Source: Candidatus Methanimicrococcus odontotermitis (GTDB lineage Archaea; Halobacteriota; Methanosarcinia; Methanosarcinales; Methanosarcinaceae). Taken from it: a stretch of 64,000 nucleotides of DNA. Positions within the stretch are counted from its first letter, which is position 1. Every line of letters begins with the position of its first letter. The notes under the pieces are model-generated. The model was not told the origin of the DNA. It worked only from the letters and a program-made list of their open reading frames with translations, and ran no database searches. Below, in pieces: positions 40,587 to 63,438 of the stretch. The translations under genes were made by a program, and so were the position numbers. The DNA lies in NCBI GenBank assembly GCA_031286065.1, contig JAITUZ010000017.1, positions 1 through 64,000 on the forward strand, given 5' to 3'.

Positions 40587-40842
40587 AATTTATCACCGAA
40601 TTATCACAAATAAATGTGACTAATCACGGACTTTAAAGGCGGACATATATAAATCATTCGGATGGAAGCGCGTTTGCTGAAAAAGATGAGAAACCGTTCG
40701 GAAAAAGAAAAACAGAACAGAAAAGCAAGACCGAGAAAAATGAAAGAATGAAAATGAAAGAATGAAAAAATGAAAATGAAAGAATGAAAATGAAAGCATG
40801 AATAAATAAAAAATAAAAAGTAAAAGTCGTGACAGGACGATT

Positions 40843-44337: not shown

Positions 44338-44353
44338 AAGCCAACGTCCGGAT
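44338..44353. repeat. attL candidate (tRNA-Cys 3'-end fragment)
   Basis: AAGCCAACGTCCGGAT identical to 63366-63381. Confidence 0.85.
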
Positions 44354-44563
44354 GTGGACTGATTTGCATCAGCAAAATCGCCACGAGACGGACGACATAA
44401 AACTCATTTTGTAATTCGTCATTAGTCGCCGTTTCCGGACAAGGCTTAATTTAATACCACTTTTGTTTTCATAATCAGCCCTCGATAAAACACTGATTTG
44501 AAAACAATCCGGTTACCAGCCGGGGTATATTATTAAATACTGTTTATTGTAATATATAATTTT

Positions 44564-45376
44564 ATGCCATTTCTAATTCCGGTTTATTATTACAGACAAT
44601 GGAGATATGCGCAGCATTTAATTGAAACCGGCTATTGTAAGCGTGTAAAATGCATATATTTAAAAGGAAGAAGATGCGGTCATGGTCACCGACCACTTAT
44701 CATGGAAGAAGAACACGTATTTACATGCTTAAGTGTGAAAAAATCAAATCCTGCAAAAAAAGCCATTCGCCGAGTAAAAAGATTAATAAGGAATCTAAAA
44801 TCAGATATTGTTTATGGAACAAAAATCCGAAATCGCGGAACAGTAATCCTGAAAAACGAGCACGGAATAATTGTAGTACAGGAACCAAACGGAAGCTGGA
44901 GTTTGCCTGGCGGCGGGATAAACATAAATGAATCAGATATGGAATGCGCATTGAGGGAATTAAGAGAAGAAACCACAGTAAAAGGAAAAAATTCAAATTA
45001 TCAATTTGAAATTAAAGGTCGAATTCACAGAGATCGACATGGGAAACGTTATATAAATTTATATAAAATATTTGAAATCACCGAATATGAAAACAAACCG
45101 AGGCCATCAAACGAAATTAGAAAAATCGGATATTGGAGATCGGGAAAATACATGAGATTAACATCTACAACTAAAAAAATCCTGGATATATATCAAAGAC
45201 CATGGAGAACACCGCAATTCAGACAATATTGCAAGTCGGTAAACTGTGCGTATGGAGATGAGAACGGTTGCGGAATAGATAGACCGGAGTTAAATCCGCC
45301 GGATGAACCGTCAACATGTTTTGAAGATGGCGTTCCATGTTGTTATGATATGCGTTCATTGGATGACGGCCATTAA
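44564..45376 (+). CDS. Nudix hydrolase flanked by two related Cys-rich (putative Zn) modules
   Basis: Nudix box GGININESDMECALRELREETTV; YCKRVKC...CGHGHRP...TC and YCKSVNC...CGIDRP...TC. Confidence 0.9.
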   Translation: MPFLIPVYYYRQWRYAQHLIETGYCKRVKCIYLKGRRCGHGHRPLIMEEEHVFTCLSVKKSNPAKKAIRRVKRLIRNLKSDIVYGTKIRNRGTVILKNEHGIIVVQEPNGSWSLPGGGININESDMECALRELREETTVKGKNSNYQFEIKGRIHRDRHGKRYINLYKIFEITEYENKPRPSNEIRKIGYWRSGKYMRLTSTTKKILDIYQRPWRTPQFRQYCKSVNCAYGDENGCGIDRPELNPPDEPSTCFEDGVPCCYDMRSLDDGH

Positions 45377-45480
45377 TTAACAACAATTCGGCAGAAAATA
45401 CTTATATAAAGATGAAAATAATAACGTATTGAAATGAATTGGCTTTACCAGAGCCAAAACATCTTTAAAACCAAACCTCG

Positions 45481-45852
45481 ATGAATATGACACAAACAAC
45501 AATTAGCGGAGCTCCCGCTGTAGATTTTACAGGTAAAGTCATTGAATACATTGCATATGGCGCAGGCGCCAAAGGCAAAAGAGACGGACGATACGAAATT
45601 CTGAAAATGTCCGGAATTTCAAGCACACATTTTTTAGTACTCGGCCAAAATATCAATACAAAACTGTATGTTGTTTTTGAAGCCGACCTTTACTCATTTA
45701 ATACTGCTCCCACCCTTGTTTATCCGTCGTATTTAATCAAAAGTCCAGAATTTGCGGAACAAAATTATAATAACCGTCTAAACAAAATCAATCGGCTGAA
45801 AACTCCGATGGATGAAGTCCGAAATATTGACAGATTGCCGGCGGTGGTCTGA
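45481..45852 (+). CDS. Provirus hypothetical protein
   Basis: Operonic ORF, TGA stop, adjoining next gene. Confidence 0.65.
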   Translation: MNMTQTTISGAPAVDFTGKVIEYIAYGAGAKGKRDGRYEILKMSGISSTHFLVLGQNINTKLYVVFEADLYSFNTAPTLVYPSYLIKSPEFAEQNYNNRLNKINRLKTPMDEVRNIDRLPAVV

Positions 45853-46281
45853 ATGGTTCAGGATTTGGCAACATTGTGCCGGGATCTCGGAACAATTTTG
45901 GAAATGAAGGAATCCGTGTCTCTTTTAGAAATAGTCGCATTGACGGAGGAAAAGCAGCTTCGAATTAAGGCTGTCATAGATTTACTCATGCTGAAGGACA
46001 AAAGCATTGAAGTGAAAGGAACGACATACACCTACAAACCGATAAAACAAGATGCCATCGTTTTGTATCTTGTATTCACAACGAACTCAATCGTTGACTC
46101 ATTTTATTTTGACCCGGAAGAACCATCTCCGACTGCGGCAGAAATTGCTGAAAAGAATTTTGTGGCCGCTTTTCGGGATGAAAATGAAGCCATGGGTTTT
46201 GCGCACAACAATGGTTTTCAAGTGCTTAAAATTGAAGAATTTATTCCTGAAGAAGATGATGAGCGTCTGTTGGTGATATGA
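45853..46281 (+). CDS. Provirus hypothetical protein
   Basis: Operonic, end-to-start contiguous with neighbours. Confidence 0.65.
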   Translation: MVQDLATLCRDLGTILEMKESVSLLEIVALTEEKQLRIKAVIDLLMLKDKSIEVKGTTYTYKPIKQDAIVLYLVFTTNSIVDSFYFDPEEPSPTAAEIAEKNFVAAFRDENEAMGFAHNNGFQVLKIEEFIPEEDDERLLVI

Positions 46282-48753
46282 ATGACCATCAGACCAAATG
46301 GGAAAAAAGTTTCAACTCCGAATCCGGATGAAATTTTCAAAGACATGAATCCGAGAGTTTACACTAAAGAGGATTTAAAAAAACACGAAGACCGATTGAA
46401 AGAAATTTCAAAAGCCGAAACTGGATGGAAATTAGAAATCGTTGCTGTCCAGGAACAAACCATTGCTACATGTATCGGCTTTGAAACGCCACACAAAGGG
46501 CTTTAGGATATTCTTGTTGAATTTGAATATAATAAGAAAAAGAAAGGAAAAGCAAAATACACATTCAATTTCACAATTAACGAATTTAATGACAAACTGC
46601 AGCATGTTGAGAAAAATCTCAAAATCAATACCATAAACCCGATTGCAAAAGATGAAAAGTTTGAAAATGAACTGAAGACTTTTTTAACCGAAGCAGGCTA
46701 CAGCAAAAAGTATCTTCACATAAAAATGGCAACAGGAAGTATTCTGAGCATCTGGCAAGAATGGGAACCAAAAGAATTTCAAGCCTTATTTCCAGAAATG
46801 GTTTATAAATCTCCAAAATTAGATTACGCACCGGAAGATTGGATTTACCAAGACTGGATTATTGATTATCCGTATGATATCGATACGAGGAATGGCAAGC
46901 TTTACCGTTACATCATCAACAAAACAGAAGATGGCGATGACATCAAAGTACTGATTTCGGATTTGGTACTGGTTACAGCTGAGTACCAAGATATGGCCAA
47001 GGAAAATGAAATTTATTTCCGGTACCTAATCAGAAATGGCAAACGGAAAGTACAGACATTCATGATGTCAGCCGGAAAAATTTCAGACAAGGAATTCATG
47101 GATGACATTCGCCGCTGCATCATTGTGATTTATGGAGAGGAGAAGCATTTCAACCGATTTTTAACACTGTTCGCAATGCGGAACCGTGATGAAAAGAAAT
47201 TAGCCCATTATTACTTCAGTTCCCGGACAGGTTGGATCACACTTGAAGGAAAACAGTATTTCTTACTCGGAAGCCGTTTTTTTGACATAGAAGATAATTA
47301 TATGAGTCCGGCAGTTCCGACCGATGAGCTGGCCGGTCATGAGGAGTTTTTTGCCGGCATTGCAGATTCCGGAAACTATAGCGAATGGATTAAAGAATGG
47401 ATACCGGCTATTCAAGCTGAGGATCCGACCGGCTGTCAAATCTTCCTTGAGAACACAAACCTTTGGTTTACCGTTTATGCTCTTTCCGCTTCATTTTTAA
47501 TGAATATGTTTCCGGGAATGGAAAATACATTAATCATTAATAGCGGCACCACGTCTCGCGGAAAATCTACGATCGCAAAAATTGCGGCCAGCATGTTCGG
47601 AGACCCGAAAAAATTCATCACGCTCGGCAGCGGAACAGAAAACGGAATTTGGAATGCCTGGCTGAAATGGAATTATTTGCCGTCAATCATGGACGAATTC
47701 ACAAATACGAAACAAGAAATCAAAAACAAGATTCCGTATTGGTTCAGTGACGGGAAGGAAAAAGCGCGCTTAAATAAAGACGCGACAGCCAAAAGAACGA
47801 ATGAATTCCGTAAAATCGGCTATATTTCACTTGAGAATGATTTTGTGAATCAAGTCATGCGGTCAGGAGTCGATGCCCGTGTGATTCCCATTTATGACGG
47901 TTTGAATCTTCCGGACACTGAAGATGAAGAAGTCAACACCGCACGCGCAACACTCATTGATGATCTGGCCAGAGTGAAATCTCACAAATATTTCGGTTTT
48001 TACAAATATGAACTGCTCAAAACCATCAGCGAGGTGGGAACAGACAGAATAAATGAGATTTATGAAAGTGTTTCAAAAACATATACGACAACAAATGACA
48101 CTTTAACAGCGCGTCTGGGAGCAAGTTTCGCTCTGTTTCATGTTTCGGGGATCCTCGTTGAAATGACAAATGAACGGCTGCAGATCCGCAACCAAACTTC
48201 ATCTGAAGAACTTCATGAAATGGTTGAAACTCGCTGCAAAGAAATTCTGGATCAAGTCGTTCAAAATATCGGTGATCATGATTGGCAGGTTGTTCTGGCT
48301 GATGTCTTGGCCCGTGCGGACAACTCTGAAACTCGCACGCGCTGGCTGACGGACGAGCAATTGATGTACCCGTACCGCCCCGATGATGAATGTTCAATCC
48401 GATATCCGGACAAAATTGAGGCCTGGTTTTGCAATGATGGCATGATTGAATATGTCGATGTGGCACCGGATATTCTCAAAACGGTCTGCATATCAACAGT
48501 GGGAAAACCGTCAATGAATAATGTTTTAAAAGAATGGACGGACAAAAAAATAATCAAACCATTAAGAGATGACCAAAAAACAGTCATGCAACGCCATTAT
48601 GATGTTCAAGGCGGCAAAAAAGTCAGGACACCGGTTTATCGGATTAACCTTCAGAAAGCCAAAGAATTGACCGGATATGATCTGATGTATCGCCGGCGGG
48701 AATTGCTGGATGAAATTCAAAGTGATTTAGAAGATTTTGATTCTACAAATTGA
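46282..48753 (+). CDS. DUF927-like helicase/primase-type ATPase containing an in-frame TAG at codon 75 (candidate pyrrolysine)
   Basis: Track ORFs 46282-46506 and 46726-48753 share one frame with no other stop between; Walker A NSGTTSRGKSTIAKIAASMFGDP; DEFTNT. Confidence 0.82.
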
Positions 48754-48836
48754 GGGATTAAAAGTGACAATAACAGTCGAATAAGGAATCTAATGTTATA
48801 AATTAAGGAATTTAAGGAACAGAGATATTTTGTTTT

Positions 48837-49874
48837 TCACTCCTGTTCCGATAAATTATACTTTGATTTAACTCTTTTTTCAATATCCTCAATCGAAGGA
48901 AGAGTATCTTCAAACTCTTTTGGCAAGTATTCTGTTAATTTATATTCACTTACACCAATGGGTTTTGTCATATCTTTCAAGGCATATTCAGCAATTGTTT
49001 TATTTTTGTTCCGGCATAAAATAAGCCCGATAGAAGGATTATCTTTTTCCTTTTTTAAAAGTTCATCTACGGCTGAGAGATAAAAATTCAACTTGCCGGC
49101 ATATTCCGGTTTAAACATCCCTGCTTTTAACTCTATCACAAAATAACAATGCAGATTCGTATTATAAAAAAGTAAATCAATATAAAAGTCTTCACCGCCG
49201 ACTTCTAAATGATACTGATTTCCAAGAAAAGCAAAACCCGTTCCAAGTTCCAAAAGCAATTTGGAAATATTTGAAACCATCTCATTTTCAATGTCACGTT
49301 CAACCATCTGATCTTTTGCCTCAATAAAATCAAACCAATATGGGTCTTTGAGTGTTTGAACAGCAAGTTCGCTTTGTGCCATATCAAGCCGTGCCGGATA
49401 ATTCGTTGTTTTAGATGCTGAAATTTGGCGCTGGTATAAGTGGGATTCGAGTTGATGTTCTAATACTCCGACTGACCAGTTGTTTTCCGCAGTTTTTAAA
49501 ATATACCACTCCATTTGCCCTCGATCTTTCACTTTATCCAAAATGGACTTATTATGCGTCCACGGAATTTGTGCAGTCACTGACTGCACAAATTCAAGGT
49601 CATTATATGTTGACGCAAATTTTTGCATGTATTTTAAATTCCTCACGGAATAACCTGTAACATTTGGAAAGTCAGCTTTAATGTCCCGCGACAGATTTTC
49701 CACAAATTTATTGCCCCACCGCTTATTTTCAAGTATGATATTTCCGATATTCCAATATAGAGTAAGCAATTCCCGATTCGCGCCGACAACAGCCCTATAC
49801 TGTGCGGTTCTAATTTGAGACTTGATCTCCTCTAAAATACTAAAATATTCGGAATTATTTATCAGCATATGCAT
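48837..49874 (-). CDS. PDDEXK nuclease-domain protein (DUF1016/YhcG family)
   Basis: ARTAQYRAVVGANRELLTLYWNIGNII-like N-term, AQIPWTHN, FYIDLLFYNTNLHCYFVIELKAG...GLILCRNKN. Confidence 0.93.
   Translation of the reverse strand: MHMLINNSEYFSILEEIKSQIRTAQYRAVVGANRELLTLYWNIGNIILENKRWGNKFVENLSRDIKADFPNVTGYSVRNLKYMQKFASTYNDLEFVQSVTAQIPWTHNKSILDKVKDRGQMEWYILKTAENNWSVGVLEHQLESHLYQRQISASKTTNYPARLDMAQSELAVQTLKDPYWFDFIEAKDQMVERDIENEMVSNISKLLLELGTGFAFLGNQYHLEVGGEDFYIDLLFYNTNLHCYFVIELKAGMFKPEYAGKLNFYLSAVDELLKKEKDNPSIGLILCRNKNKTIAEYALKDMTKPIGVSEYKLTEYLPKEFEDTLPSIEDIEKRVKSKYNLSEQE
49565..49595. repeat. Perfect 15-bp inverted repeat (31-bp near-complete palindrome) inside the DUF1016 gene
   Basis: GAATTTGTGCAGTCA-C-TGACTGCACAAATTC. 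Confidence 0.95.
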
Positions 49875-49948
49875 TCTCCAGATATTTTCAACGCATCATT
49901 CATATAAAAACCAAATTGGAATAATTGAAGAATTTATAATCTGAAGAG

Positions 49949-50275
49949 TTAAATTATCTCTTCATCACAATACTCTTTTTCTTCTAATTTTGCCCAGCTA
50001 CGGACAGCCTTGTAAAGTTTCCAAACGGAAAGAAAAAGTAAAATAGGTCCAGCAATCGGACTAAGCATCCGAATGGAAAAACTGGAAAGGTCTTCTAATG
50101 CCAGTTCCATGAGGGTGCTAAACTCCCAATCCCAATAAATGATGGCGAGAAGCACTAAGATATACCAAAACAATAAAATTAAAGATAAAAAAAACAAAGA
50201 AACATAAATCAAAATTGTTCTTTTTATTTTCTTTTTTTCATTGATGACTTCCTGATCAGTGTCTGCAATTGTCAT
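49949..50275 (-). CDS. Small two-TM hypothetical protein
   Basis: 108-aa ORF with two hydrophobic helices. Confidence 0.55.
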   Translation of the reverse strand: MTIADTDQEVINEKKKIKRTILIYVSLFFLSLILLFWYILVLLAIIYWDWEFSTLMELALEDLSSFSIRMLSPIAGPILLFLSVWKLYKAVRSWAKLEEKEYCDEEII

Positions 50276-50420
50276 AAGTATAAAAATACCGGTACAGATA
50301 TAAAATGGTTATGTGAAAATAAAGGAAACTGCAATCATTTTTCAAAAAGTGTTATTTTATAATAAAATAATACTTTGAATTCACACTTGATAAAAAACTT
50401 ACAAAAATTGAAAAAAATAA

Positions 50421-50721
50421 CCATGACAACCATGACAACTTAAAAAATAGGCATATTGCTATTGATAGTTCACTGATGCTTTTTTGATTTACTGTTATTG
50501 TTTTTTTTGTCATGGTTGCATACCATGACAATACCATGACAACCATGACAGAACCATGACAACACCACGACAAAAACAAAGTTGTCATGGTTGTCATGGT
50601 AAAAAATAATGTTGTCATGGTTCCAAACCATGACAAAAAAACAAGCATTAGAAGGATGAAAAGAGAGCGGCAAAAAACAGAATCTGACGGAATCATTTAA
50701 TGTTGTCATGGTTGTCATGGT
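50421..50721. repeat. Iteron-like array: 13 exact CCATGAC/GTCATGG copies plus one variant, in nested inverted arrangement
   Basis: Copies at 50421,50430,50509(-),50523,50534,50543,50554,50584(-),50593(-),50614(-),50628,50705(-),50714(-); variant CCACGAC at 50565. Confidence 0.95.
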
Positions 50722-51025
50722 GAAAAACACATCATTTTTATTTTTTTGAAAAAACTGAAAAAAGCTGAAAAACCGATTTGTGTTACTCCGGAAAAATAAA
50801 AAGACGAACGAATGAGACTTTTAAAAAATAGAGATTCAGAAAAAAGACAAAAAAATTCTGCATTTTATTCAAAAAAAAGACGAAAATTTGATAAAAAATT
50901 GATTTTTTATTATTACAAAAAATAACCGATTGCGTTTTTAAAAATTTTATTCAGGATTTTATTTCGGAAAGAATAAAAAAGAGATGAGGAGACACGAAAG
51001 TATAAAACAGGAACAGGAGAGCATA

Positions 51026-51535
51026 TTATAAAAAATAAACCAAAACTGACAATAAAATATTTCCAAACGTGCAGCTGATCAAAGCGGCCGGTAAAAATCC
51101 GACAAGTCCGGGCGCCGGGCGGTCAGGCTGAAGAAACCGGAACAAAAGCAAGATAGGAACTGACAGAATCATAAAATTGCAAACAATGTCAAGAGCCGGA
51201 AGTGTCCCGATTCCGGGCAAAATCAAACCATCCGGATAAACCGGCAAAAATAGAATTAACCCGGAAAAGATTTTGACATCAGCCGCGCCGATTGAACCGA
51301 ACATGACAGCACCAGCAGAAAAAACATAAGATAGGACAAAAAGAATGATACCGATTATTATTTCGTGAAATGTCACCGATTTTAAAAACAAAAAATCAAT
51401 AAAAATAAAACAAGATACGCAAATCAAAAAAACGCTTAAAAGCAACTTATTTGGAACGCGCCGGGTCTTAATATCCAGCGGCATGAAAATAAAAGCAATC
51501 GACATCATAAATAAAACTGAAGCAATTGTGAACAT
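51026..51535 (-). CDS. Prepilin/preflagellin peptidase-like aspartic protease (A24 type)
   Basis: DIKTRRVPNKL and GxHyD-type GAADVK motif in multi-TM protein. Confidence 0.8.
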   Translation of the reverse strand: MFTIASVLFMMSIAFIFMPLDIKTRRVPNKLLLSVFLICVSCFIFIDFLFLKSVTFHEIIIGIILFVLSYVFSAGAVMFGSIGAADVKIFSGLILFLPVYPDGLILPGIGTLPALDIVCNFMILSVPILLLFRFLQPDRPAPGLVGFLPAALISCTFGNILLSVLVYFL

Positions 51536-51541
51536 GATTTA

Positions 51542-51907
51542 TTACTCCCGGATTCGGACTTCTTTTAAAAACGCTTCAAGGGTTTCCCTCAAAAGGCAGC
51601 TCATTGAACAGCCGATCTTCTCGGCATCACGCTTCAGATCATCCCGCATCTCGGGCGAAACCTGCACCAAGAGAACTTTCCATTTTTTGGCCGAAATTTG
51701 ATCCTTTTGATTGCCGGTGTCGGTCGAAAAATCATGGTCATAATTTTGAAGTTCTTGATGTACCCGATTCCAAACCAGCCTGCAGACGGCTGCCCGGCTC
51801 ATGTTCATCAACTTTGCTTTTCGGTCCAGCTCCGCGGCAGTTGAGCGGCTGATCATGATTCTTATCTGGACTTTTTTGTTCGTTTCAGGCGCCGGTGTTC
51901 CGGCCAA
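51542..51907 (-). CDS. DNA-binding regulator with two tandem ribbon-helix-helix-like domains
   Basis: VQIRIMISRSTAAELDRKAKLMNMSRAAVCRLVWNRV and KVLLVQVSPEMRDDLKRDAEKIGCSMSCLLRETLEAFL. Confidence 0.72.
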   Translation of the reverse strand: MAGTPAPETNKKVQIRIMISRSTAAELDRKAKLMNMSRAAVCRLVWNRVHQELQNYDHDFSTDTGNQKDQISAKKWKVLLVQVSPEMRDDLKRDAEKIGCSMSCLLRETLEAFLKEVRIRE

Positions 51908-51972
51908 AATGACTGCGGTTTCCGTTTGAAATTCCCCCGGGAAAAGCGATTCAAAAATCTCATTGTCTCAAA

Positions 51973-52080
51973 ATTATACAATGCGGTTTAAATAGGAAAT
52001 ATCAGCATTATTGTAATATAATGAATTTTGAAGATTAACATTATACAATATTGTATAAATGCATTCGTTATTGTATTAAT
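51973..52080. promoter_or_regulatory. Divergent regulatory region with perfect 18-bp palindrome TTATACAATATTGTATAA (52041-52058) and extra half-sites
   Basis: ATTATACAAT at 51973, palindrome at 52041, ATTGTA motifs near 52010 and 52069. Confidence 0.7.
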
Positions 52081-52220
52081 ATTGTTTGCCTGAAAGGGCA
52101 GGAGTGATACAAATGACCGTATTAGTCAACAAATCAACAATATTGACGGAAATTTATTGTTCAATTCTCATGATTTGGACAACAGTTCAAAGGAAGGTAA
52201 CAAATAAACTGAAACAGACG

Positions 52221-52559
52221 ATGTCAAACTGGAGAACAGTCATGAGCATCGCTGTTGCGAACGCTTATTCACCGATTAACGGCGCAAAGACCATTTACAA
52301 AACATTTTATGCGGAAGATGCCGTTGAGCGAGGATCTCTAACCGATGCTGTTGTCGGCCTATTCGTTTTTGGTATGGTTTTGGTTGCGGCATACATCGGT
52401 ATCGGCATGGTTGAGCCCTATTTACCAACAAGTGATGGAACGCTTGATGCCGATGCACAGAAGACGCTTGACACCATCCGCGCAGCTCTCGGCATTGCCG
52501 GCGTCTGTATGATTTTCATTTCACTTGGTTTATTGATTGCGACATTGCGCAGCTGGTAA
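52221..52559 (+). CDS. Candidate major capsid protein (two-TM, spindle-virus VP1-like); the track start 52086 is also possible
   Basis: ERGSLTDAVVGLFVFGMVLVAAYIGIGMVEPYLP...AALGIAGVCMIFISLGLLIATLRSW: two hydrophobic helices with short loop. Confidence 0.55.
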   Translation: MSNWRTVMSIAVANAYSPINGAKTIYKTFYAEDAVERGSLTDAVVGLFVFGMVLVAAYIGIGMVEPYLPTSDGTLDADAQKTLDTIRAALGIAGVCMIFISLGLLIATLRSW

Positions 52560-52575
52560 TATCAAGAAGGAAGAG

Positions 52576-52869
52576 ATGGCGATGGATGGAATTCTTTATT
52601 CTTTATTTTCGGCAGTCGCGATTCTCGGCGTCTGGATCGGCATAATTGAATTCCGGCTTTCCCGGTCAACTGACGCGGTCATTTTTCCCGGGACATCTCT
52701 CCTTTTAACAATTTTATTGATGATTTCATCAAAATTTGTAGAAACCGAACTGTTCAGTCCGGCTGAAAGTAATTTCATATTTGCTTTTTGGCTCTGCATG
52801 TTCATTTTAAGCTTTGGATTAATGTTTGTCATGGCTGCCGGAACATTCCGGTCTGAAGGAGTTAAATAA
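52576..52869 (+). CDS. Small three-TM provirus protein
   Basis: Start at MAMDGILYS with upstream AAGGAAG; TAATG overlap with next gene. Confidence 0.7.
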   Translation: MAMDGILYSLFSAVAILGVWIGIIEFRLSRSTDAVIFPGTSLLLTILLMISSKFVETELFSPAESNFIFAFWLCMFILSFGLMFVMAAGTFRSEGVK

Positions 52870-53336
52870 TGTCTGAAATGGGAAATCAATCGGATTACGC
52901 CGGACAAATTACACCGGAAGATATTGTGAAATTGAGGCAAGCCGGCCTCGGAGCCGAAATTTCGAAGTTGTTTCTGGAAGATGAATTTGTCGAAGATATG
53001 ATCTCTCCGGAAGTCAAACCTTATTTTGATGCAATCCGAAAAGTCGGCATCGGACAGTATGATAAAAAAGATGTCGAGAAGCTGTTGAAAAAAATTGACT
53101 CGATGAAAACGACATTCATCATGTCATCAATGGAATCAGAATACACATGGCAGCATGAGCGTGAATTTACGATGCTGAGTGTCCTCGCGATTAAAAACAC
53201 AAGCATGGGAATTGACGGCACATTCCTGAAACGTGCATTCGGCAGCATTCAGGAAACGAATTTGGTTCAGACCATGAACAGTCCGCAGCAAGCGCGGCCC
53301 GGATTAATCGCTTCATTTTTCAGTAAAAAACGATAA
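52869..53336 (+). CDS. Provirus hypothetical protein
   Basis: Operonic ORF with start/stop overlap. Confidence 0.7.
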   Translation: MSEMGNQSDYAGQITPEDIVKLRQAGLGAEISKLFLEDEFVEDMISPEVKPYFDAIRKVGIGQYDKKDVEKLLKKIDSMKTTFIMSSMESEYTWQHEREFTMLSVLAIKNTSMGIDGTFLKRAFGSIQETNLVQTMNSPQQARPGLIASFFSKKR

Positions 53337-53361
53337 TTGAAAAACCTCCGGACGGATTAAA

Positions 53362-54384
53362 ATGGATTCATTGTGGATTTGGACAACGTTTTTCTTTGGA
53401 ATGGCATGCGGACTGTTGTTTATTTTTTCCATCGTTTATATAAAATGGAGCGGCCCTTACAGCTGGGTTATTTTTAAGGCAAGGCTGAACGGATACCGCG
53501 TCAGTTGGTTTATTGATAATCATGGTGAAGTCCATCCGGAAGCCGTAAAAGGAGAATTCGGCTATCATGCGGCTGATGCAGGAATTTTCCTCCCGGATCC
53601 GGACAATCCGGTTTCAACCGACCGTGGAAGACACAAAGGCGGTGTTTTTGACACAAACATGGCCGCCGGAATCAATTTTATTTTGATGAAAGCCGCAAAA
53701 AAACTTTCAAAAACAAATACTAACGGGCACACAGAAACAGTCAGCGGAATAAATCAAACGATTATTGAGTCGAATGAACTGGCGGAAGTCAAAGCCGGAG
53801 AGTTCGAAGAAGAAATGTTAGAGGAGCTGGCTGATGCCGGCGGACAAGCTGACGCAATGATTGTTTCGGCGAGAGAAAAAGCGTTGGATGAGCTGAAAAG
53901 TATCAGAGAAGAATTTTATAACTCAGAGGAAGTTACCGATGAGGATTTAAAAAAGAGACTTGAAGACGCTTTTGAAATTATTTATGCTTCAGTGACCGAA
54001 GAATTCACTGAGGAGTCATCGAGTGAAAAAATTGCCGAGAAATTAACGCCGGTTATTGAAAAATATACAAACAAAGTCGAAAAGCTTAAAAAAGAGTTTG
54101 GAGACCGGCTTCTTTTGAGCGACACTGAAATTAAAGCGCTCCGTCATTATTATGTATTGAACCAGCCGCAATACGTTGAGAAAAAGCTTCAGGCATCGGT
54201 CAATGAAGCTGTTTCGCGCGAAAAGAACAATATGAAGACATTCATGATGATTGCCGCGTTTGTCATTGTTGCATTTCTTGCCGTCGTTTTGGCAATTTAC
54301 TTACTCGGCAACGACCCGACTGTAATCATTCAAAACGGCTCGGATTTTATAACGGCCAATAATTCAACAACTCTTCCGATGTGA
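53362..54384 (+). CDS. Provirus membrane protein, TM at both ends with coiled-coil middle
   Basis: N-term FFFGMACGLLFIFSIVYI; C-term FMMIAAFVIVAFLAVVLAIYLL. Confidence 0.72.
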   Translation: MDSLWIWTTFFFGMACGLLFIFSIVYIKWSGPYSWVIFKARLNGYRVSWFIDNHGEVHPEAVKGEFGYHAADAGIFLPDPDNPVSTDRGRHKGGVFDTNMAAGINFILMKAAKKLSKTNTNGHTETVSGINQTIIESNELAEVKAGEFEEEMLEELADAGGQADAMIVSAREKALDELKSIREEFYNSEEVTDEDLKKRLEDAFEIIYASVTEEFTEESSSEKIAEKLTPVIEKYTNKVEKLKKEFGDRLLLSDTEIKALRHYYVLNQPQYVEKKLQASVNEAVSREKNNMKTFMMIAAFVIVAFLAVVLAIYLLGNDPTVIIQNGSDFITANNSTTLPM

Positions 54385-54869
54385 TAGACATGTCAGATAG
54401 TTTATTCTCTCAAAACCCGCATGGCGGTCTTTATTCCTCAGTCGGTCAGAAAGGGCTGTACCGGCAGGAAATATCAGTTGATGTTTTAATGTTTCTGGAT
54501 GCGAAAAAGAGTTTTTATTCTGATTTAAAAATAAAACATCGTTTTCCGGATTGTATTGAATCATACGAAGACCTGTGCAGTGAGATGTACGGAATTGTTG
54601 AAAAAGTGAAACCGATCCTGCTTGTCAAAAATAACAAAAAGGATGTTGATCCGCTTGGAATTGCCCTCGTTGATGAACTCGAACAATTCTTTGCATAGAA
54701 GGATTCGGGATTTGATCATAAAAAAATTGAATTAGCCGCAACAAATGCGAATTTGATTATTGAAATGGCGGATTCACTACTGAAAATGCTTTACAGTAAA
54801 GAGATTTACGATCCATCGATCATGTTTAAAATGGACAGTCCGGGAACTGCATACAGGAGGTCTATGTGA
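54381..54869 (+). CDS. Provirus hypothetical protein with in-frame TAG at 54696-54698 (162 residues if TAG is sense)
   Basis: Open frame continues KDSGFDHKKIELAATNANLIIEMADSLLKMLYSKEIYDPSIMFKMDSPGTAYRRSM to TGA overlapping the next ATG. Confidence 0.72.
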
Positions 54870-55783
54870 TGCCGAGCGTATTCTTGCGTGACGCTCTTGT
54901 GAAATAGAGAAAGGAATGCGAAGTAAAAGAACGGGAAGATGCCGAGGGAACGAAAAAACCTGTTCTTCGTTTGCTTCAAAAAAATTTGGAAGGGATTGTC
55001 CGCGTTTGCAAAGAAAATCGGCTCGATTGGCCGATTAACGTCGTCGGTGCGGAAGGTTCGGGAAAGTCAACGCTTGCCGCACATATTTCTCAAAAGCTGG
55101 CCGAGATGACCGGGCAAGAGTTGGATTTGGCAGAATCGATGATTTATTCGTTTGACGAGCGTGATCGCCATGGAGCTCCGCTTAAAAACTCATTGGTCGG
55201 ATTCGTTGACAAGTATCAATCAACGGAATTTAAAATATTATGGTATGATGAAGCTGTCACTGTTCTTTTTTCGGACGAACACGCAACGAGAGAATCAAAA
55301 GAGGCGAAAAAACTGTTTATCACGAAGCGTGACATGTGCCATTTTGATATTTTAGTATCACCGTCACCGTTTCACATCATCAAGGATATTCGGAGCCGCC
55401 GCGTTAAAACAATGATTTATTGCTTCATCATGGAAGATCCGGAAACAAAACGCTTCAAGCACAAATATGCCTGGTACTCGGCCGATAAAATCGTTTCAAT
55501 GTCATACGGTTCGAATCAGAAAAAAGCTGAAGTTCTGTTCCGCCGGCCGAAACAATTTATAAACGCGTTTCCGCCGGATTTTATTGAAGATTTCCCGAAA
55601 ATGACGCAAGAATTCGAAGAAAAATATCTTTTGACAAAGCGCACATTCATGAAAACGTATATTGACTCACTCGTCGGCGGCGAAAAAACAGCTGCTGATT
55701 TAGTGCTTCCTGAGAATTTCAGCTTTATACCGGTCTTTGACAAGCTGGTCGGCAAAACTGCCGGCGGCGAGGAGGCCGTCTGA
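54869..55783 (+). CDS. P-loop ATPase (candidate viral packaging/AAA-type) with in-frame TAG at codon 13
   Basis: AGGAGGT SD at 54855-54861, ATG 54869, MPSVFLRDALVK-TAG-RKECEVKEREDAEGTKKPVLRLLQKNLEG...; Walker A GAEGSGKST, Walker B-like ILWYDE. Confidence 0.82.
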
Positions 55784-58569
55784 TGGCATACGGAAAAGCA
55801 ACTGTTGTGGATTCGGGAAACTCATCGGGATCGCTTACCAATACCGTCCGCGAAGCCGCCGGAAACGCTGTACGAAATGCGCAGAATTCCGGCGCAAGCA
55901 AAGCCGATGTAATTAAAGCACGAGATGCGGCGAAAGAAAGTGTTTATGCCGGTGCTGTTCAAGCCATCAATACCGGTGGCAGTTATAAAGGGATGAGTGC
56001 ACAGCAGCTGCATAATGAGCTTTACGGCGGACTGGAACAAACGGCGACTCAACACGGAACACCGATTGCACTGGTTCAGAGCCGCAACCATTTGCAGAAC
56101 ATGCAAAATGCCGGCTTCTATGACGCTGAATGGAATCCCACAAACAAAGCATTGCAAGGGCAGATACAGAAGAACCAAAGCCAACCGCCAATAACTGTAA
56201 TAGATTTTAAGCCGGCGGCCGTCCAACCAAAAGAACTCAGCATCAGAGAGCGCATTAATTACGAATCGATGAGACTTAAAGAATCAAAGATTCCAATAAT
56301 AAGAGGAGCTGCGGCTTACCTTCCGAATTATTATGATCCGGAAGTTATGGAGAAAGCGAAAGAAAACAACATTGATTTTAATGAGGTTGCTTCGTCAGTT
56401 TCTTCCTTGATGGGCCCGATCGGTATTCTGAATATTTCAGAAAGTGATAAAAATCCGTTTCGAACTGACAAAAACAAATTGGTGGATGCGACTTTAGAGG
56501 GTCTTTTTTATGGATTTACCGGTGAAGATGTTTCCGGAAAAAGTGAAATCGTCCAAGCGGCCGGCAATCGCGGAACAAACTGGATTGATGCGAAGACAGG
56601 TGCTTTGCATGAGTGGTCTATGCGAAATTTGGACGGGCGATTCTATGAGATTGGATCATTTGTTCGCGGCATGGTTCCGGATTCAATTGTCGGTGTCGGC
56701 ACATTGATTAGTGAAGGGACAAAGACAATTACAGCCGGCTTCCGGGAAGCGAAAAAATCAGGAGCAAACCTGACAGGAATCACCCGTGGTCAAGCGATGT
56801 CAACGTCTTTTGCCGGCATGCTCGGGTTCGGTATCGGCACAATTGCCGGCGGAACAGTAAGAGGAGCAATAGACGACCCGATTGCCTTTGCCGGCGGATT
56901 GATTGGAACCGGCGGTGCAGGCGGTATTGGGAAGTTGGGCATGGGAGTTGGGAAATTCAGATTGAAAGCTTTCAAACAAGCCGCAGGTAAAATTGATGTT
57001 TCACTCAAAGATTTGGGCGTTGATCCTAAAGTGATTAAGATGGGAGGAGATGTTTACAGACTTGAGGGGAAAGCAGCGTTTCCGGATGCTTATCCTGTTA
57101 AGACTGGAATTAAAATGCATGAAGGAGTTTCGATGCTGGAAAATGCAAAAAATCTCTACCCGGGGGAGAAATCCGGAAGCACCGCGATTATTCACTCAAG
57201 TCCAAAAAACAGAGGAGATATTTACAGTCCGCATGTCGGAAAGTCTTCGGAACCAGGCATGTTTGGAGCAGAATCACCTTCAATCCGATTTATGAAGATT
57301 CCATATTTTAAAAATGCAAAATTGGTCGGATTTTCAAATCCTTTCAGCCCATCTAAGTTAAATGAACTCAGTCCAAGAATTATGTTTATTGAGGGGAAAG
57401 GAATTAGATCACCAGAAGTCACATCAGGGGTTAAAACAAATAAGTTTTTACTAAATGATGCAGATGCTGGTTATTTCTGGACAACTCATAAGATGAGACA
57501 AAGAATTGAGAGCGGAAAGCTTGTAGAAGTAGAAGCTGTCGTTTCTCCAAAAACCACAATTTCGACCTACGACAATAAACCGTATTCTGATGCAACTCTT
57601 TACAGAATCGAATCAAAATACCGAACAACAGTTAAACAGCCGATTGATTTCCCCGGAATTAAAATGGATGTTGATTTAAAAGTGCCTGTTGAAAAATATA
57701 TTATGGTCACGGCTGATGATATGGCCTTAGTTCCAGTTTCGGCGCCGGCAAAAAAATCCAAGTTTTTTTCTCCAGATTCGCATGGAAAAGACGGTTCTTT
57801 GACTTATCCGGTCGGAACGAATATGAATCTTCACACGGGACCGAAACCGATTAGAACGGTCACCGAAATTTCAAAAAAAAACGGCAGCATCAAAGAAATG
57901 TTTACAGCCCGCCGAACAGCTTCAGCTGATGTTGTCAATAGGCATAAAGCCGGCATGGCTTCAAAAAATTATGATGCGAAAAAATTGTTTGAATCCGCCA
58001 AATCTAAAAAGACCGCGTCTGCCGAATCTAAACCGATTACATCTGCCGCGTCTCCAACCGCTGCGCGGATCAGCGAGCTGACGGACGGGAAAAATGCCGG
58101 CGATCTGATAAAAAAAACATCAAACACACAAAGCATCGAGGACTTGATTCGAAAAAAAGCACCACCGAAAACAAAAAAGTCGGACTCCGGAAGCAGCCGC
58201 AAATCACCAAAACAGCCGGCATATCCTCTTGTCGATTTAACATACAGCCCTTTGGGTGTCTCACGCGGCGCCAAATCCAAATCAAAGCCCTCTAATTCTC
58301 GCGGCGGTTACTACAGCCCGACCTCGGGGTATGGATACGGCAGCAGTAAAAGTTCATCTCCCGGTTATTCCGGATATGGAGGCGGCAAAAGTTCATCATC
58401 AAAAACGGCACCGTCTAAAGCAACAACTCGACCGATTGTACATAAACAGACATCAAAGAAATTAAAGAAAGAAGAACCAATCAGTCCCGCTAAACGGACA
58501 AAGAAAACCACGAAAAAATCAACAAAGAAAGAATTTAGGGTTAACCCGCTCAGGGGGCTGAAAATCTAA
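55783..58569 (+). CDS. Large provirus structural-type protein with Ser/Lys/Gly/Tyr-rich basic C-terminus
   Basis: 928 aa; central Gly-rich hydrophobic segment; TGATG start overlap. Confidence 0.7.
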   Translation: MAYGKATVVDSGNSSGSLTNTVREAAGNAVRNAQNSGASKADVIKARDAAKESVYAGAVQAINTGGSYKGMSAQQLHNELYGGLEQTATQHGTPIALVQSRNHLQNMQNAGFYDAEWNPTNKALQGQIQKNQSQPPITVIDFKPAAVQPKELSIRERINYESMRLKESKIPIIRGAAAYLPNYYDPEVMEKAKENNIDFNEVASSVSSLMGPIGILNISESDKNPFRTDKNKLVDATLEGLFYGFTGEDVSGKSEIVQAAGNRGTNWIDAKTGALHEWSMRNLDGRFYEIGSFVRGMVPDSIVGVGTLISEGTKTITAGFREAKKSGANLTGITRGQAMSTSFAGMLGFGIGTIAGGTVRGAIDDPIAFAGGLIGTGGAGGIGKLGMGVGKFRLKAFKQAAGKIDVSLKDLGVDPKVIKMGGDVYRLEGKAAFPDAYPVKTGIKMHEGVSMLENAKNLYPGEKSGSTAIIHSSPKNRGDIYSPHVGKSSEPGMFGAESPSIRFMKIPYFKNAKLVGFSNPFSPSKLNELSPRIMFIEGKGIRSPEVTSGVKTNKFLLNDADAGYFWTTHKMRQRIESGKLVEVEAVVSPKTTISTYDNKPYSDATLYRIESKYRTTVKQPIDFPGIKMDVDLKVPVEKYIMVTADDMALVPVSAPAKKSKFFSPDSHGKDGSLTYPVGTNMNLHTGPKPIRTVTEISKKNGSIKEMFTARRTASADVVNRHKAGMASKNYDAKKLFESAKSKKTASAESKPITSAASPTAARISELTDGKNAGDLIKKTSNTQSIEDLIRKKAPPKTKKSDSGSSRKSPKQPAYPLVDLTYSPLGVSRGAKSKSKPSNSRGGYYSPTSGYGYGSSKSSSPGYSGYGGGKSSSSKTAPSKATTRPIVHKQTSKKLKKEEPISPAKRTKKTTKKSTKKEFRVNPLRGLKI

Positions 58570-58805
58570 TGGTCAGTTATCAGCTCCTCGTCTTCGGAAT
58601 CGGTCTTGTTGTATTCGGAATAGCGTTTACTTTCATTAATGACCAGTTATATGACATGACGGCAGCCGGTCTGATCGGATATACCGGGATTAATGAAACA
58701 TTCCTATTCGGCCAATATTGGCTGGATTTTTTATGGGGACTCTTCCCTTCATTGGTTTTTGTCACAGGTGGTCTGTGGTGTTCAGCAAGGGCAATGAAAG
58801 GGTGA
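58569..58805 (+). CDS. Small two-TM provirus protein
   Basis: TAATG overlap; hydrophobic helices. Confidence 0.68.
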   Translation: MVSYQLLVFGIGLVVFGIAFTFINDQLYDMTAAGLIGYTGINETFLFGQYWLDFLWGLFPSLVFVTGGLWCSARAMKG

Positions 58806-58811
58806 TTCAAA

Positions 58812-61220
58812 ATGAAATTAATAAAAACACTCCTCACCCTTTTATTTTTATTCATATTGATGCAGACAGCGAACGCCGAAACGGGTTTGTATGAATTCCC
58901 TGTCGGAGTCGGCGACAACACGCTAGACTTAGGAAACGCATACAACGGCTCATATGTCAATTCCATAACCGGAACTGTTTATGAATCTTCTTTGCATTAT
59001 CAGGAAGTAACAATTAATGTTCCGGACACTGATAAGATAGGAACAAAAAGAACGCTGAAGCTGGATGTTCTGTTTACTGACGGAATGAAATTGGATTTTT
59101 CAGATGTTTATTTCACGGATCGGAATTTTAATATTATTCCGATATATCGTGACATGAATTCGACTGTCAATGGGAGCAATGCTACTTTTTATTTGTATTT
59201 CGACAGCATCGCGGCTCAAAACGATTTATACATGTGCTGGGGAGTCGGGTCGAATCCAAAACAAGATTCGTATGTTTTTTTGGCAAATTTTGGAAATGGG
59301 GAGACATATACCACCAGTGTCAATTTCAACGTGTATCGTCCGGAGAGTTTATACAATATTTCGACATCGCCTGCGTCTACTTTTAATTATACGAATGCTG
59401 AAGTTATTTTCTCGATGAGTGGTTCCGGCTCGAATCATAATACAGCGCCATGGCTAAGACTGAAAATAAATTCATCAAATAGTTCTGCTCTCACTAATTC
59501 TGTCGGTACATGGGTTGAGGGCGGCCGATTGTTTTTAATAACGTTTCCAGGTTGGATGCAGACAGAAATTCGTCCAATTTCCACAACTATCATCAAACTT
59601 GAATCTTCTCTGATAAATTCGACTTTAGTTGGAAATGCAAATAATATAACATCAATCTGGGATCTTACAAATAATGACTGGACTAATGTTTTTAGTTTTA
59701 ATCGCGGGTCCGGTTCCATAACCATTTATTCATTTAAAACATATAATTCTACAAATTTTACCGCAAGTTTCGGAGAAATTAATAAACTCGTAGCTTCGGA
59801 ACATCCGATTACAATCTCTTATCCAGCTTCCGATTTTTCGACATTGGATTTTGAATCAGAGTGGGTCGGAAATTTAGAATTTAGAATAAATTATGACCCC
59901 CATGCCGTTTTGTCAACGCCGAACGATGCAACATTCCAAGAAACCGCCATTCTGCAATTTGAAATAAACCCGCAAAATCTGCAGCTGCCATATCAGATCG
60001 CTCTTGACGACACTTTTTTCAGCATCGTCAATTCCGGATCATCGTCCGGAATCATTTCAGTAAAGTTGCCGGCAAACAATTATTACTGGAGAGTGATGCA
60101 GCCGGACGGAAATTATTCGGATATTCGGACGTTTACGGTCACAGAACCGGGACCGATTCAGGGGTCATTAAATTTTACAATAAGAAATGAACTGACAAAC
60201 ACATCTGTGTCGGCAACCGTTACGATTTCAAACAACACAACAACTTTACAAAAAACAGGTTCTACTGTTACATTTAACAGTTCCGAAGTCACGGCCGGCA
60301 ATTACTCGGTTCGTGTCAATTCAACAAACAATTCAACGCGGTTTTATGAAGTCGTTAGTCCGGGAGATTATACTCTTTATATTTTACCGATAACGGTGAA
60401 CACATCCGTTGTTTATTTTTCGTTGATTGACAACACAAATCAGTTTCAATACAATTCGACCAAACTCGAAATCATAAAACAGACAACGAACGGTTCAATT
60501 GTTGTCACAAGCAATTATTTTGATGCGTCCGGCTTTGTTGTCACAACTCTTAATCAATTCGATAATTATATTCTTAAAGTCGTTTCGGATTCAGGAACTG
60601 AAAGAATTTTGGGAAACTACATTCAGGCCGGTCAAACATCAATCCAACTTGTCATTTCAGAAATTATCTTGAAGGATCCTGATGTTAACATACACGGAGG
60701 ATTCACTTACAATCTGAAGAAATCTCTGGAAGGAATTAAACTTGAGTGGCGGAATCCGAACAGTGATGCATTAACTGAGCCATTTACGTTCAAAATCTTA
60801 AAGGATGGGGAGCAGGTGATGAACATTACATCGACCGCACCTTTCGGCCTAATTCATTATATTGATACAGGCGGCGGCGAACTTGATCCGAATGCGACAT
60901 ATGAGATCATCTTTGAGGCCGAAACAACCGGCGGAAAAATTAGGGTTCACGAATTCTACAAAATCAGCGGTGAAATAACCGGAATTAACTTTGACATTAT
61001 CCCGGCACCAGTGAGAATCATTGTGACAATTGGACTGCTCGTTCTTGTGGCCAGCCAATTCAACACAACAAACGCTAAATTTGCAGCGGTTGTCGTATCA
61101 GTTATTGCATTATTCTTATCGTTTGTTTCATTCTTTCCGGTCGGAAATGCAATATTGGTTTTCGTTTGGCTGCTGTTCATTGCAGTCGTTGCACTGAAGA
61201 CGAGCAGGAGGTTCGGATAA
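58812..61220 (+). CDS. Large exported adhesin/spike-like protein with C-terminal TM segments
   Basis: Signal peptide, N/T/S-rich ectodomain with Ig-like repeats, C-terminal hydrophobic helices. Confidence 0.75.
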   Translation: MKLIKTLLTLLFLFILMQTANAETGLYEFPVGVGDNTLDLGNAYNGSYVNSITGTVYESSLHYQEVTINVPDTDKIGTKRTLKLDVLFTDGMKLDFSDVYFTDRNFNIIPIYRDMNSTVNGSNATFYLYFDSIAAQNDLYMCWGVGSNPKQDSYVFLANFGNGETYTTSVNFNVYRPESLYNISTSPASTFNYTNAEVIFSMSGSGSNHNTAPWLRLKINSSNSSALTNSVGTWVEGGRLFLITFPGWMQTEIRPISTTIIKLESSLINSTLVGNANNITSIWDLTNNDWTNVFSFNRGSGSITIYSFKTYNSTNFTASFGEINKLVASEHPITISYPASDFSTLDFESEWVGNLEFRINYDPHAVLSTPNDATFQETAILQFEINPQNLQLPYQIALDDTFFSIVNSGSSSGIISVKLPANNYYWRVMQPDGNYSDIRTFTVTEPGPIQGSLNFTIRNELTNTSVSATVTISNNTTTLQKTGSTVTFNSSEVTAGNYSVRVNSTNNSTRFYEVVSPGDYTLYILPITVNTSVVYFSLIDNTNQFQYNSTKLEIIKQTTNGSIVVTSNYFDASGFVVTTLNQFDNYILKVVSDSGTERILGNYIQAGQTSIQLVISEIILKDPDVNIHGGFTYNLKKSLEGIKLEWRNPNSDALTEPFTFKILKDGEQVMNITSTAPFGLIHYIDTGGGELDPNATYEIIFEAETTGGKIRVHEFYKISGEITGINFDIIPAPVRIIVTIGLLVLVASQFNTTNAKFAAVVVSVIALFLSFVSFFPVGNAILVFVWLLFIAVVALKTSRRFG

Positions 61221-61589
61221 ATGGAAACTTATAAAATTACAGTTTTTTTGATAATTTTGAATTATACAATCTTCGCATTTGCGGCACTTGGTGTTTTCCC
61301 GATAGAGTATCCGTATATCAGCGAATATATCGACCCGTCAACATTTTCCGGAAACGTTCCCGAAAATATCAGTTATGACAGTATCAGCTACGGCAATTAT
61401 ATTTTTGGCGATTTCATTCGAGCGCTTGTCATGATTGCCGCACTGCTGGTCATTGCACCGTTTGCGCTTGCGTTTTTATTAAACTCATTGGGCATTCCGA
61501 CATTGATTTCAACACTTTTGATCATCATGCTGTCAATTATTTATATCAAAGATTTGGCTGAGTTCATTGGAAACCGCATTATAAAATAA
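61221..61589 (+). CDS. Small multi-TM provirus protein
   Basis: Operonic, hydrophobic segments. Confidence 0.68.
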   Translation: METYKITVFLIILNYTIFAFAALGVFPIEYPYISEYIDPSTFSGNVPENISYDSISYGNYIFGDFIRALVMIAALLVIAPFALAFLLNSLGIPTLISTLLIIMLSIIYIKDLAEFIGNRIIK

Positions 61590-61604
61590 CAGGCGGCGAT
61601 TAAA

Positions 61605-61916
61605 ATGCTTGAATACTTCGGAGTTTATGATATGATGCAGACAGGCGATTACATGGATATCGCACTCCTTGCTTACATCCATACATACGGCATTGTATTC
61701 TGGCTTGCTATTTGGGCCGTGTTGATGATCATCCTGTACATTAAAAATGAAGATTTGACTTCCGTTATGGTTTTAACAGCGATAATGCTTACGGCAACCG
61801 GCGTTTATTCATCCCAATATGATTTCTTCCCGATTCAGGCGGTAGCCTTCGGCATCATCATTATCTGCCTGATTTCCGCTGGTGTTTTGTACAGATATTA
61901 TAACACAATGGAGTGA
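61605..61916 (+). CDS. Small multi-TM provirus protein
   Basis: Operonic, hydrophobic segments. Confidence 0.68.
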   Translation: MLEYFGVYDMMQTGDYMDIALLAYIHTYGIVFWLAIWAVLMIILYIKNEDLTSVMVLTAIMLTATGVYSSQYDFFPIQAVAFGIIIICLISAGVLYRYYNTME

Positions 61917-62194
61917 TTAATTTGGTTGTAGCTTCAAGACGAAAAGTGACATGGATAGAAGCCATTGCCGGCACACTTGTTGGTTGGACAGTCCTCTATA
62001 TCCTTTACAGCGCAATCATCCCGCACTTTGACAATTTAATGACAATGGCTTTGGGTTACGGCGTCCCGGAAGAAATATTGAATCAAATCCGGCTTTATTT
62101 AGTCATCGCGCTGATTATAATCGGCATTGTGCTTTTTTTGTATATGTTTCTGGCTGCATTACTGGTTGAGTTTGATCAATATCAAAGCTACTGA
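61913..62194 (+). CDS. Small two-TM provirus protein
   Basis: ATG/TG overlap with previous gene; hydrophobic segments. Confidence 0.65.
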   Translation: MINLVVASRRKVTWIEAIAGTLVGWTVLYILYSAIIPHFDNLMTMALGYGVPEEILNQIRLYLVIALIIIGIVLFLYMFLAALLVEFDQYQSY

Positions 62195-62288
62195 CAAGTA
62201 CCGGTTTTGACAATAAACTTTTTTTATTTTTTCCAAATGTATGGGATGTGGCGGGCTACCGCCGCATGAACAATTCGGAGATATAAAA

Positions 62289-63233
62289 ATGGAAAAAATT
62301 CTAAACCAATTCCATGTTTTTTTAATAAAACAAGGCAAAGACAAAAGAGTATGCAATTCATACAGAAATGATGTCCGGACATTCTGCGAAGTTTGCAAAA
62401 TAACAAATGTTGAACAATTGAATTTTAAAAAAGCTTCGGAATATGATCCGATTTTTTTGACTTATATCAATTGGCTGAAGGATGTCCGGAAAAACAAATA
62501 CAAAACAATGTGCAGAAAGCTTTCAGCCCTTGAAAAATTCTTTGCGTTTTTGGTCAGATATGATTTTATCATCATGGATCCTGTTCCAAGCTTCAGGCAA
62601 TTTAACATGCAAGAACACAAAACAGAAGATTCTGAAATGAGAATGCTGCCGGAACCAAAAGAAGTAAAAGTTACCCTAAAAAACAGTAACAACATCAAAC
62701 TTTTTTTCATGATCGCCCTATTGGCAAAATCCGGTGCACGCCGGCAAGAAGTCATTGATGCCGACCACGAAGATTTCAAAATCGAACGCAAAATCTGGGA
62801 AGTGAAAAGCCATCCGAAACGAACAGGCAAAAAAATACCACTTGATGATGAATTGATTGCCATTTTCAAAATATATATGAAAACCAGAACGGACGATTGC
62901 CCTGCACTGTTCATTGGGAAAAGAGGGCGGCGAATAAATAAAGACGCACTGCGTGAAGACCTGACGGATGTATTCAGGAGATGCGGACTGTATAAAGACG
63001 GCGGTAAACTGGACGAACGTCTGACGCCGCATTGCTTCAGACATTTCCAAAATACACAATTGGATTTAAGCGGCCTCCCGAGAGGAATTTTAACAGAGAT
63101 TCGAGGAGATCAGCGGAAAGACATTGACAGCTGCGAAAGATACATCCATTACAATGAAAAGAACCTCGTGAAGATTTATAACCAACATAAAATAAAGCTT
63201 GTTGGAAAAAGCATGCGATTACCGAGAAAATGA
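62289..63233 (+). CDS. Tyrosine recombinase/integrase
   Basis: AKSGARRQEVIDA (catalytic R), HCFRH (HxxR), CERYIHYN (Y); adjoins tRNA; start at MEKILNQF preferred. Confidence 0.92.
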   Translation: MEKILNQFHVFLIKQGKDKRVCNSYRNDVRTFCEVCKITNVEQLNFKKASEYDPIFLTYINWLKDVRKNKYKTMCRKLSALEKFFAFLVRYDFIIMDPVPSFRQFNMQEHKTEDSEMRMLPEPKEVKVTLKNSNNIKLFFMIALLAKSGARRQEVIDADHEDFKIERKIWEVKSHPKRTGKKIPLDDELIAIFKIYMKTRTDDCPALFIGKRGRRINKDALREDLTDVFRRCGLYKDGGKLDERLTPHCFRHFQNTQLDLSGLPRGILTEIRGDQRKDIDSCERYIHYNEKNLVKIYNQHKIKLVGKSMRLPRK

Positions 63234-63365
63234 CAAAATCATTTTGTTAAAAAACTGCAAAAAAATAAGACAGCAAGAGAACGTTTTTCAAAAAGCTTTC
63301 AAAGAGTCTCTTGCTGCAATGGTTTTGTGGGAACCGCTGGCAACCGTTTTTATGGTACATGAATC

Positions 63366-63381
63366 AAGCCAACGTCCGGAT
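63366..63381. repeat. attR candidate overlapping 3' end of tRNA-Cys
   Basis: AAGCCAACGTCCGGAT identical to 44338-44353. Confidence 0.85.
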
Positions 63382-63438
63382 TTGAACCGGAGTAGATTCG
63401 CTCTGCAGGCGAACGCATAGCCGCTCTGCCACGTTGGC
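63367..63438 (-). tRNA. tRNA-Cys (GCA)
   Basis: Cloverleaf: acceptor GCCAACG/CGTTGGC, anticodon stem TTCGC-CTGCAGA-GCGAA, T-arm CCGGTTCAAATCCGG, U73 discriminator. Confidence 0.95.

Follow-up and report, generated by a model that had tools for sequence, protein, structure and literature searches.

An in-frame amber codon in the DUF927-type ATPase gene of a probable provirus of Candidatus Methanimicrococcus odontotermitis is predicted to encode pyrrolysine

Results

An amber codon within a single coding frame

In the window, a 64,000-nucleotide stretch of a Candidatus Methanimicrococcus odontotermitis contig, we examined a gene for a DUF927-type ATPase that is interrupted by an in-frame TAG at codon 75. 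Judged from the sequence, this TAG is very probably a sense codon, so that the gene would encode a single protein of 823 residues in which residue 75 is pyrrolysine. A single product of this length, favored by the initial annotation, is the better model in light of the pyl cluster of the source genome, the rarity of TAG terminators, the coding signature around the TAG, and a Shine-Dalgarno motif found only at 46282. The relevant features are as follows.

46272-46277 (+): Shine-Dalgarno-like GGTGAT, 4 nt before ATG 46282, able to pair with the usual 16S rRNA tail
46282-48753 (+): DUF927-type replication ATPase/helicase gene, 823 residues, assigned from its translation, PF06048, phrog_8841, and codon usage
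46504-46506 (+): in-frame amber codon 75, predicted to be read as sense, as pyrrolysine, from the frame, the coding signature, and the rarity of TAG terminators
46507-46725 (+): 73 codons after the TAG, with a coding signature and free of start codons, which would be translated only with read-through

Translation of 46282-48753 (+) gives 74 residues, the TAG at 46504-46506, 748 further residues, and TGA 48753. The ORFs 46282-46506 and 46726-48753 had been placed in the same frame, and this is correct: the TAG is the single interruption from ATG 46282 to TGA 48753 and the only disruption within the 823 codons. The residues quoted after the TAG match exactly, and 46507-46725 runs stop-free into the 675-aa ORF, the sole in-frame start between the TAG and this ORF being ATG 46726. 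Base shuffling of the 73-codon segment 46507-46725 left it open in 0.16% of cases, and none of 5000 shuffles was both open and free of start codons.

A codon-usage log-odds model was trained on 246 genes of the source genome. The 74-codon part (46282-46503) scored +10.2, which is the 36th percentile of real coding chunks, and the 73-codon part (46507-46725) scored +12.0, the 47th percentile; genuine 73-codon coding chunks have a mean log-odds of 11.8. Open wrong-frame stretches scored as high in 1.0% (74-codon part) and 0.6% (73-codon part) of cases, and all five other frames scored negative for both parts. Codon usage is typically coding before and after TAG 46504.

ATG 46282 abuts the TGA of the preceding gene. 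The internal ATG 46726 was said to lack a Shine-Dalgarno sequence, and indeed no match of at least 4 nt was found there. As a control, the motif is missing at the first start codon in 23 of 45 window genes, and its absence at 46726 is therefore weak evidence.

Pyrrolysine machinery and TAG usage in the source genome

The source genome carries a complete pylTSBCD cluster on contig C4, in which pylT is tRNA-Pyl with the anticodon CUA and the pylS, pylB, pylC, and pylD proteins all exceed curated cut-offs. Its PylRS and the one from Methanimicrococcus blatticola share 85% identity. The gene for the release factor aRF1 is present and normal, so some termination at UAG is expected.

TAG usage was surveyed in 358 kb sampled from the genome, a draft assembly of 59 contigs that is 79% complete. 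Of the 271 ORFs with 120 aa or more, 146 terminate in TAA, 115 in TGA, and 10 in TAG. Seven of the 10 terminal TAGs sit within longer coding frames, and true TAG terminators number at most 3 of ∼264 ORFs; two of the three remaining TAG-ended ORFs have a TGA 4 or 6 codons further on. In three sampled relatives TAG ends 9/130 ORFs, a rate from which the source genome's ≤3/264 differs with p values of 9e-6 (binomial) and 0.003 (Fisher). Within the window, TAG ends one of the 62 called ORFs (at least 90 aa), and that TAG (54698) is in-gene. TAG is nearly gone as a terminator in this genome.

The seven in-frame TAGs occur in MtmB, MttB, MtbB, a CobN-like protein (two), an SDH protease, and a surface-like protein, and Pfam domains bridge the TAG in CobN (PF02514) and the SDH protease (PF01972). 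The CobN-like gene (L037, 5276-11473, +) has its in-frame TAGs at codons 246 and 1093, with another at codon 6 if translation starts that early. We also observed an MtmB-like gene lacking the pyrrolysine site (L041, 6599-7909, +) that is interrupted by a TGA near codon 96, which may mark a pseudogene or another form of recoding.

Homologs of the ATPase

The identification of the gene as a DUF927-like ATPase was upheld by a match to PF06048 (6.5e-21, 75.7 bits against a gathering cut-off of 22.6) and by a P-loop, GTTSRGKS, at residue 422. The protein also matches phrog_8841 (DNA primase/helicase, 1e-26) and, distantly, the SCCmec replicative helicase Cch1; a primase domain was not found. The DUF927 domain falls entirely within the 675-aa ORF, which is about as large as the shorter homologs.

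DUF927 relatives were detected in 18 other genomes of the order, all of them distant and with significant matches (22-28% identity) in the core only. In these relatives the P-loop lies at residue 229 to 527, so that ∼230 to ∼530 residues precede it, as compared to 274 in the shorter model of the present protein and 421 in the longer one. No relative from the order matches residues 1-206, and a comparison with 19 relatives from the order, phmmer and hhalign runs with residues 1-215, and a search of 397 genomes of the phylum returned chance matches only. The best of these N-terminal matches, at loci L125 and L127, look by eye like a regulator and a methylase and were set aside. The comparison of homologous N-termini that had been proposed as a check was carried out, but it provided no relative with the matching N-terminal residues, and the N-terminal lengths fit either model. 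Because their N-termini vary, the homologs are indecisive between one protein and two. With residues 1-206 lacking a homolog, the N-terminal part of the model depends on codon usage, on the open frame, and on the start signals; this lack is the weakest point of the one-protein model.

AlphaFold predictions without an alignment were poor (mean pLDDT 40 and 32) and were left out of the evidence. Scans of IMG/VR for the helicase, the spike-like protein described below, and the ATPase revealed no close relative, nor was one found among phages and plasmids. Elsewhere in the source genome, a 56-residue stretch at L007 1501-1668 (contig C13) shares 45% identity with the helicase C-terminus. It is an apparent remnant of a related gene and lies near genes resembling CRISPR-associated ones.

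The gene lies in a 19-kb integrated element

A 22-bp repeat, of which none would be expected by chance, flanks 44338-63387 (19 kb). The features of this element that bear on its nature are as follows.

44338-44359 (+): left attachment repeat, a copy of the tRNA-Cys 3' end, 20/22 identical
45481-46281 (+): a pair of small genes (123 and 142 aa) immediately before 46282, which they abut
54381-54869 (+): 162-aa element protein with a second in-frame TAG at 54696-54698 (codon 106), bridged by TAG-free homologs
54869-55783 (+): 304-aa P-loop ATPase, with a third in-frame TAG at 54905-54907 (codon 13) if the start is ATG 54869
55783-58569 (+): 928-aa element protein with distant relatives in Methanosarcina elements
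58812-61220 (+): 802-aa spike-like protein with a relative in Haloferax virus LSV-48N
61221-61589 (+): 122-aa membrane protein, conserved beside the spike-like gene in Methanosarcina elements
62241-63233 (+): tyrosine integrase adjoining tRNA-Cys (PF00589, 1.7e-13)
63366-63387 (+): right attachment repeat, at the tRNA-Cys 3' end

The element contains a module of 155-aa, 340-aa, and 162-aa proteins, the P-loop ATPase, the 928-aa protein, the 802-aa spike-like protein, and small membrane proteins. Methanosarcina-type genomes (genus g13, same family) share as many as six of these genes in conserved order, and incomplete copies of the module are present on contig C34 of the source genome and in another genome of the genus. 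The copy on contig C34 (L114) is a divergent, partial second one whose shared genes have no in-frame TAG. A Methanimicrococcus element (L098) encodes a relative of the 142-aa protein, whose gene lies upstream of that for the ATPase. By eye, the spike-like protein has a signal peptide and C-terminal membrane segments. It resembles a large protein of Haloferax virus LSV-48N (PP151251; 802 aa here and 904 aa there, E ∼5e-11), and the run of gene sizes around it is similar in both. The other element proteins, in contrast, have no recognizable relation to that virus, and the replication genes and the host are different. Since only one protein is related to LSV-48N, a full assignment to the lemon-shaped viruses was rejected. 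No capsid protein was recognized by sequence in the element. Because its module is common to Methanosarcina elements and one of its proteins is shared with a Haloferax virus, the element is probably a provirus integrated in tRNA-Cys.

Three further observations were made in the window. A NUDIX hydrolase (44564-45376, +) with extra cysteine-containing N- and C-terminal regions lies just inside the left attachment repeat. The element also encodes a YhcG/DUF1016 PDDEXK nuclease (48837-49874, -) that matches the PADLOC candidate defense family PDC-S02. Short AT-rich tandem repeats with a 14-nt unit are found at 40737-40822.

Further amber codons in genes of probable proviruses

TAG 54696 in the gene for the 162-aa protein is a sense codon, because TAG-free homologs, from Methanosarcina-type genomes and from contig C34 of the source genome, span it and share the conserved IYDP motif, which falls after the TAG. 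For the neighboring P-loop ATPase, the homologs have ∼47 residues before the P-loop, as compared to 59 from ATG 54869 and ∼25 from TTG 54971. This favors the longer form starting at ATG 54869, which would place TAG 54905 inside the gene. TAG is the terminator of none of the 21 listed genes of the element. A provirus-like element in a different genome of the genus (G086) has an integrase gene (L098 1366-2340, -) with two in-frame TAGs, one of which falls inside the catalytic domain (Phage_integrase).

Discussion

Our current model for the expression of this gene is that ribosomes start at ATG 46282, that the host PylRS charges tRNA-Pyl(CUA) so that pyrrolysine would be inserted at residue 75, and that translation would run on to TGA 48753. 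The resulting 823-residue protein would begin with ∼150 to 200 N-terminal residues specific to the element, continue into a DUF927-type P-loop ATPase, and most likely be the replicative helicase of the element. Because TAG is almost absent as a terminator, an amber codon arising in a gene could be tolerated or fixed. We infer that insertion at codon 75 is efficient. Since TAG looks like a sense codon genome-wide, pyrrolysine at this position is most likely a neutral, tolerated replacement, with the residue itself having no required function.

The frame could alternatively hold two genes, encoding a 74-aa protein that ends at the TAG and a 675-aa helicase that starts at ATG 46726. There is a start codon at 46726, and the 675-aa ORF retains the complete DUF927 domain and has an N-terminus that equals those of the shorter homologs in length. 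However, the 73 codons from the TAG to this ATG look coding and would nonetheless stay untranslated, 46726 has no preceding Shine-Dalgarno sequence, and TAG is scarcely a terminator in the source genome, which together make two genes improbable. We regard as still less probable that the TAG at 46504 arose by nonsense mutation as the gene decayed, or that it reflects a sequencing error. The draft state of the assembly (59 contigs, 79% complete) and the frequency of decay in proviruses would allow for it, yet the 823 codons hold no further disruption and have normal codon usage throughout, and the element contains two additional in-frame TAGs, as does a provirus in a different genome of the genus.

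A rather unlikely reading, though one to be taken more seriously, is that UAG acts as a partial stop, yielding a 74-aa peptide along with less of the 823-residue protein, in proportions that the supply of pyrrolysine might tune. The presence of aRF1 speaks for such dual use, as does an amber reporter in Methanosarcina acetivorans that gave only 20 to 30% full-length product (PMC2933860). Against it, TAG terminators are strongly depleted, as in Ca. Methanomethylophilus alvus, for which insertion has been inferred to be efficient (PMC4153887), and the full-length product comes without any sign of a functional 74-aa piece. Moreover, an Rfam search of 46200-47200 did not find a pyrrolysine insertion element, and no known structured element is recognized downstream. 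Dual use is compatible with pyrrolysine at residue 75 of a single protein, which requires only that the full product is made.

Archaea in which all TAG codons are read as pyrrolysine were reportedly described in 2025. In pyl-bearing archaea, UAG is used as a sense codon and also as a stop (PMC2933860), and TAG makes up 1.6% of stops in Ca. M. alvus, for which 16 pyrrolysine proteins besides the methyltransferases, Cas1 among them, have been predicted (PMC4153887). Methanosarcina Thg1 and transposases with amber codons are likewise predicted pyrrolysine proteins (PMC2933860), and read-through of CobN has been predicted in M. acetivorans (PMC1242214). Like these cases, the present gene is unrelated to the methylamine methyltransferases, has a TAG in frame, and belongs to a methanogen with pyl genes and few TAG terminators; the homologs of the known cases lack the TAG. 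It differs in that its product is a replication ATPase and its location an integrated virus-like element with two further in-frame TAGs. As compared to the DUF927/phage primase-helicase family (PF06048, phrog_8841), it shares the P-loop ATPase core and the position in a mobile element, but its N-terminal 150 to 200 residues have no detectable relatives and it has a TAG at codon 75. Pyrrolysine outside the methylamine methyltransferases is already known; the present gene would add a virus-borne case. Among the listed titles and abstracts that pair pyrrolysine with viruses or proviruses of archaea, a partial coverage that leaves novelty unproven, none reported a viral pyrrolysine protein.

The replication ATPase, the module protein, its neighboring ATPase, and the integrase of the other element raise a broader idea, quite possible although still tentative, that Methanimicrococcus proviruses have adopted the TAG-as-pyrrolysine code of their hosts. 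If true, propagation of these proviruses would depend on the supply of pyrrolysine, and their hosts would be limited to those that decode TAG. Gene callers using table 11 split such TAG-containing genes, and because TAG behaves almost wholly as sense in the genus, its proteomes and proviruses carry annotation errors. If a replication protein requires pyrrolysine, it would bind the virus to pyl-bearing hosts, and it would provide a clean test of whether pyrrolysine outside the methyltransferases is merely tolerated or is used.
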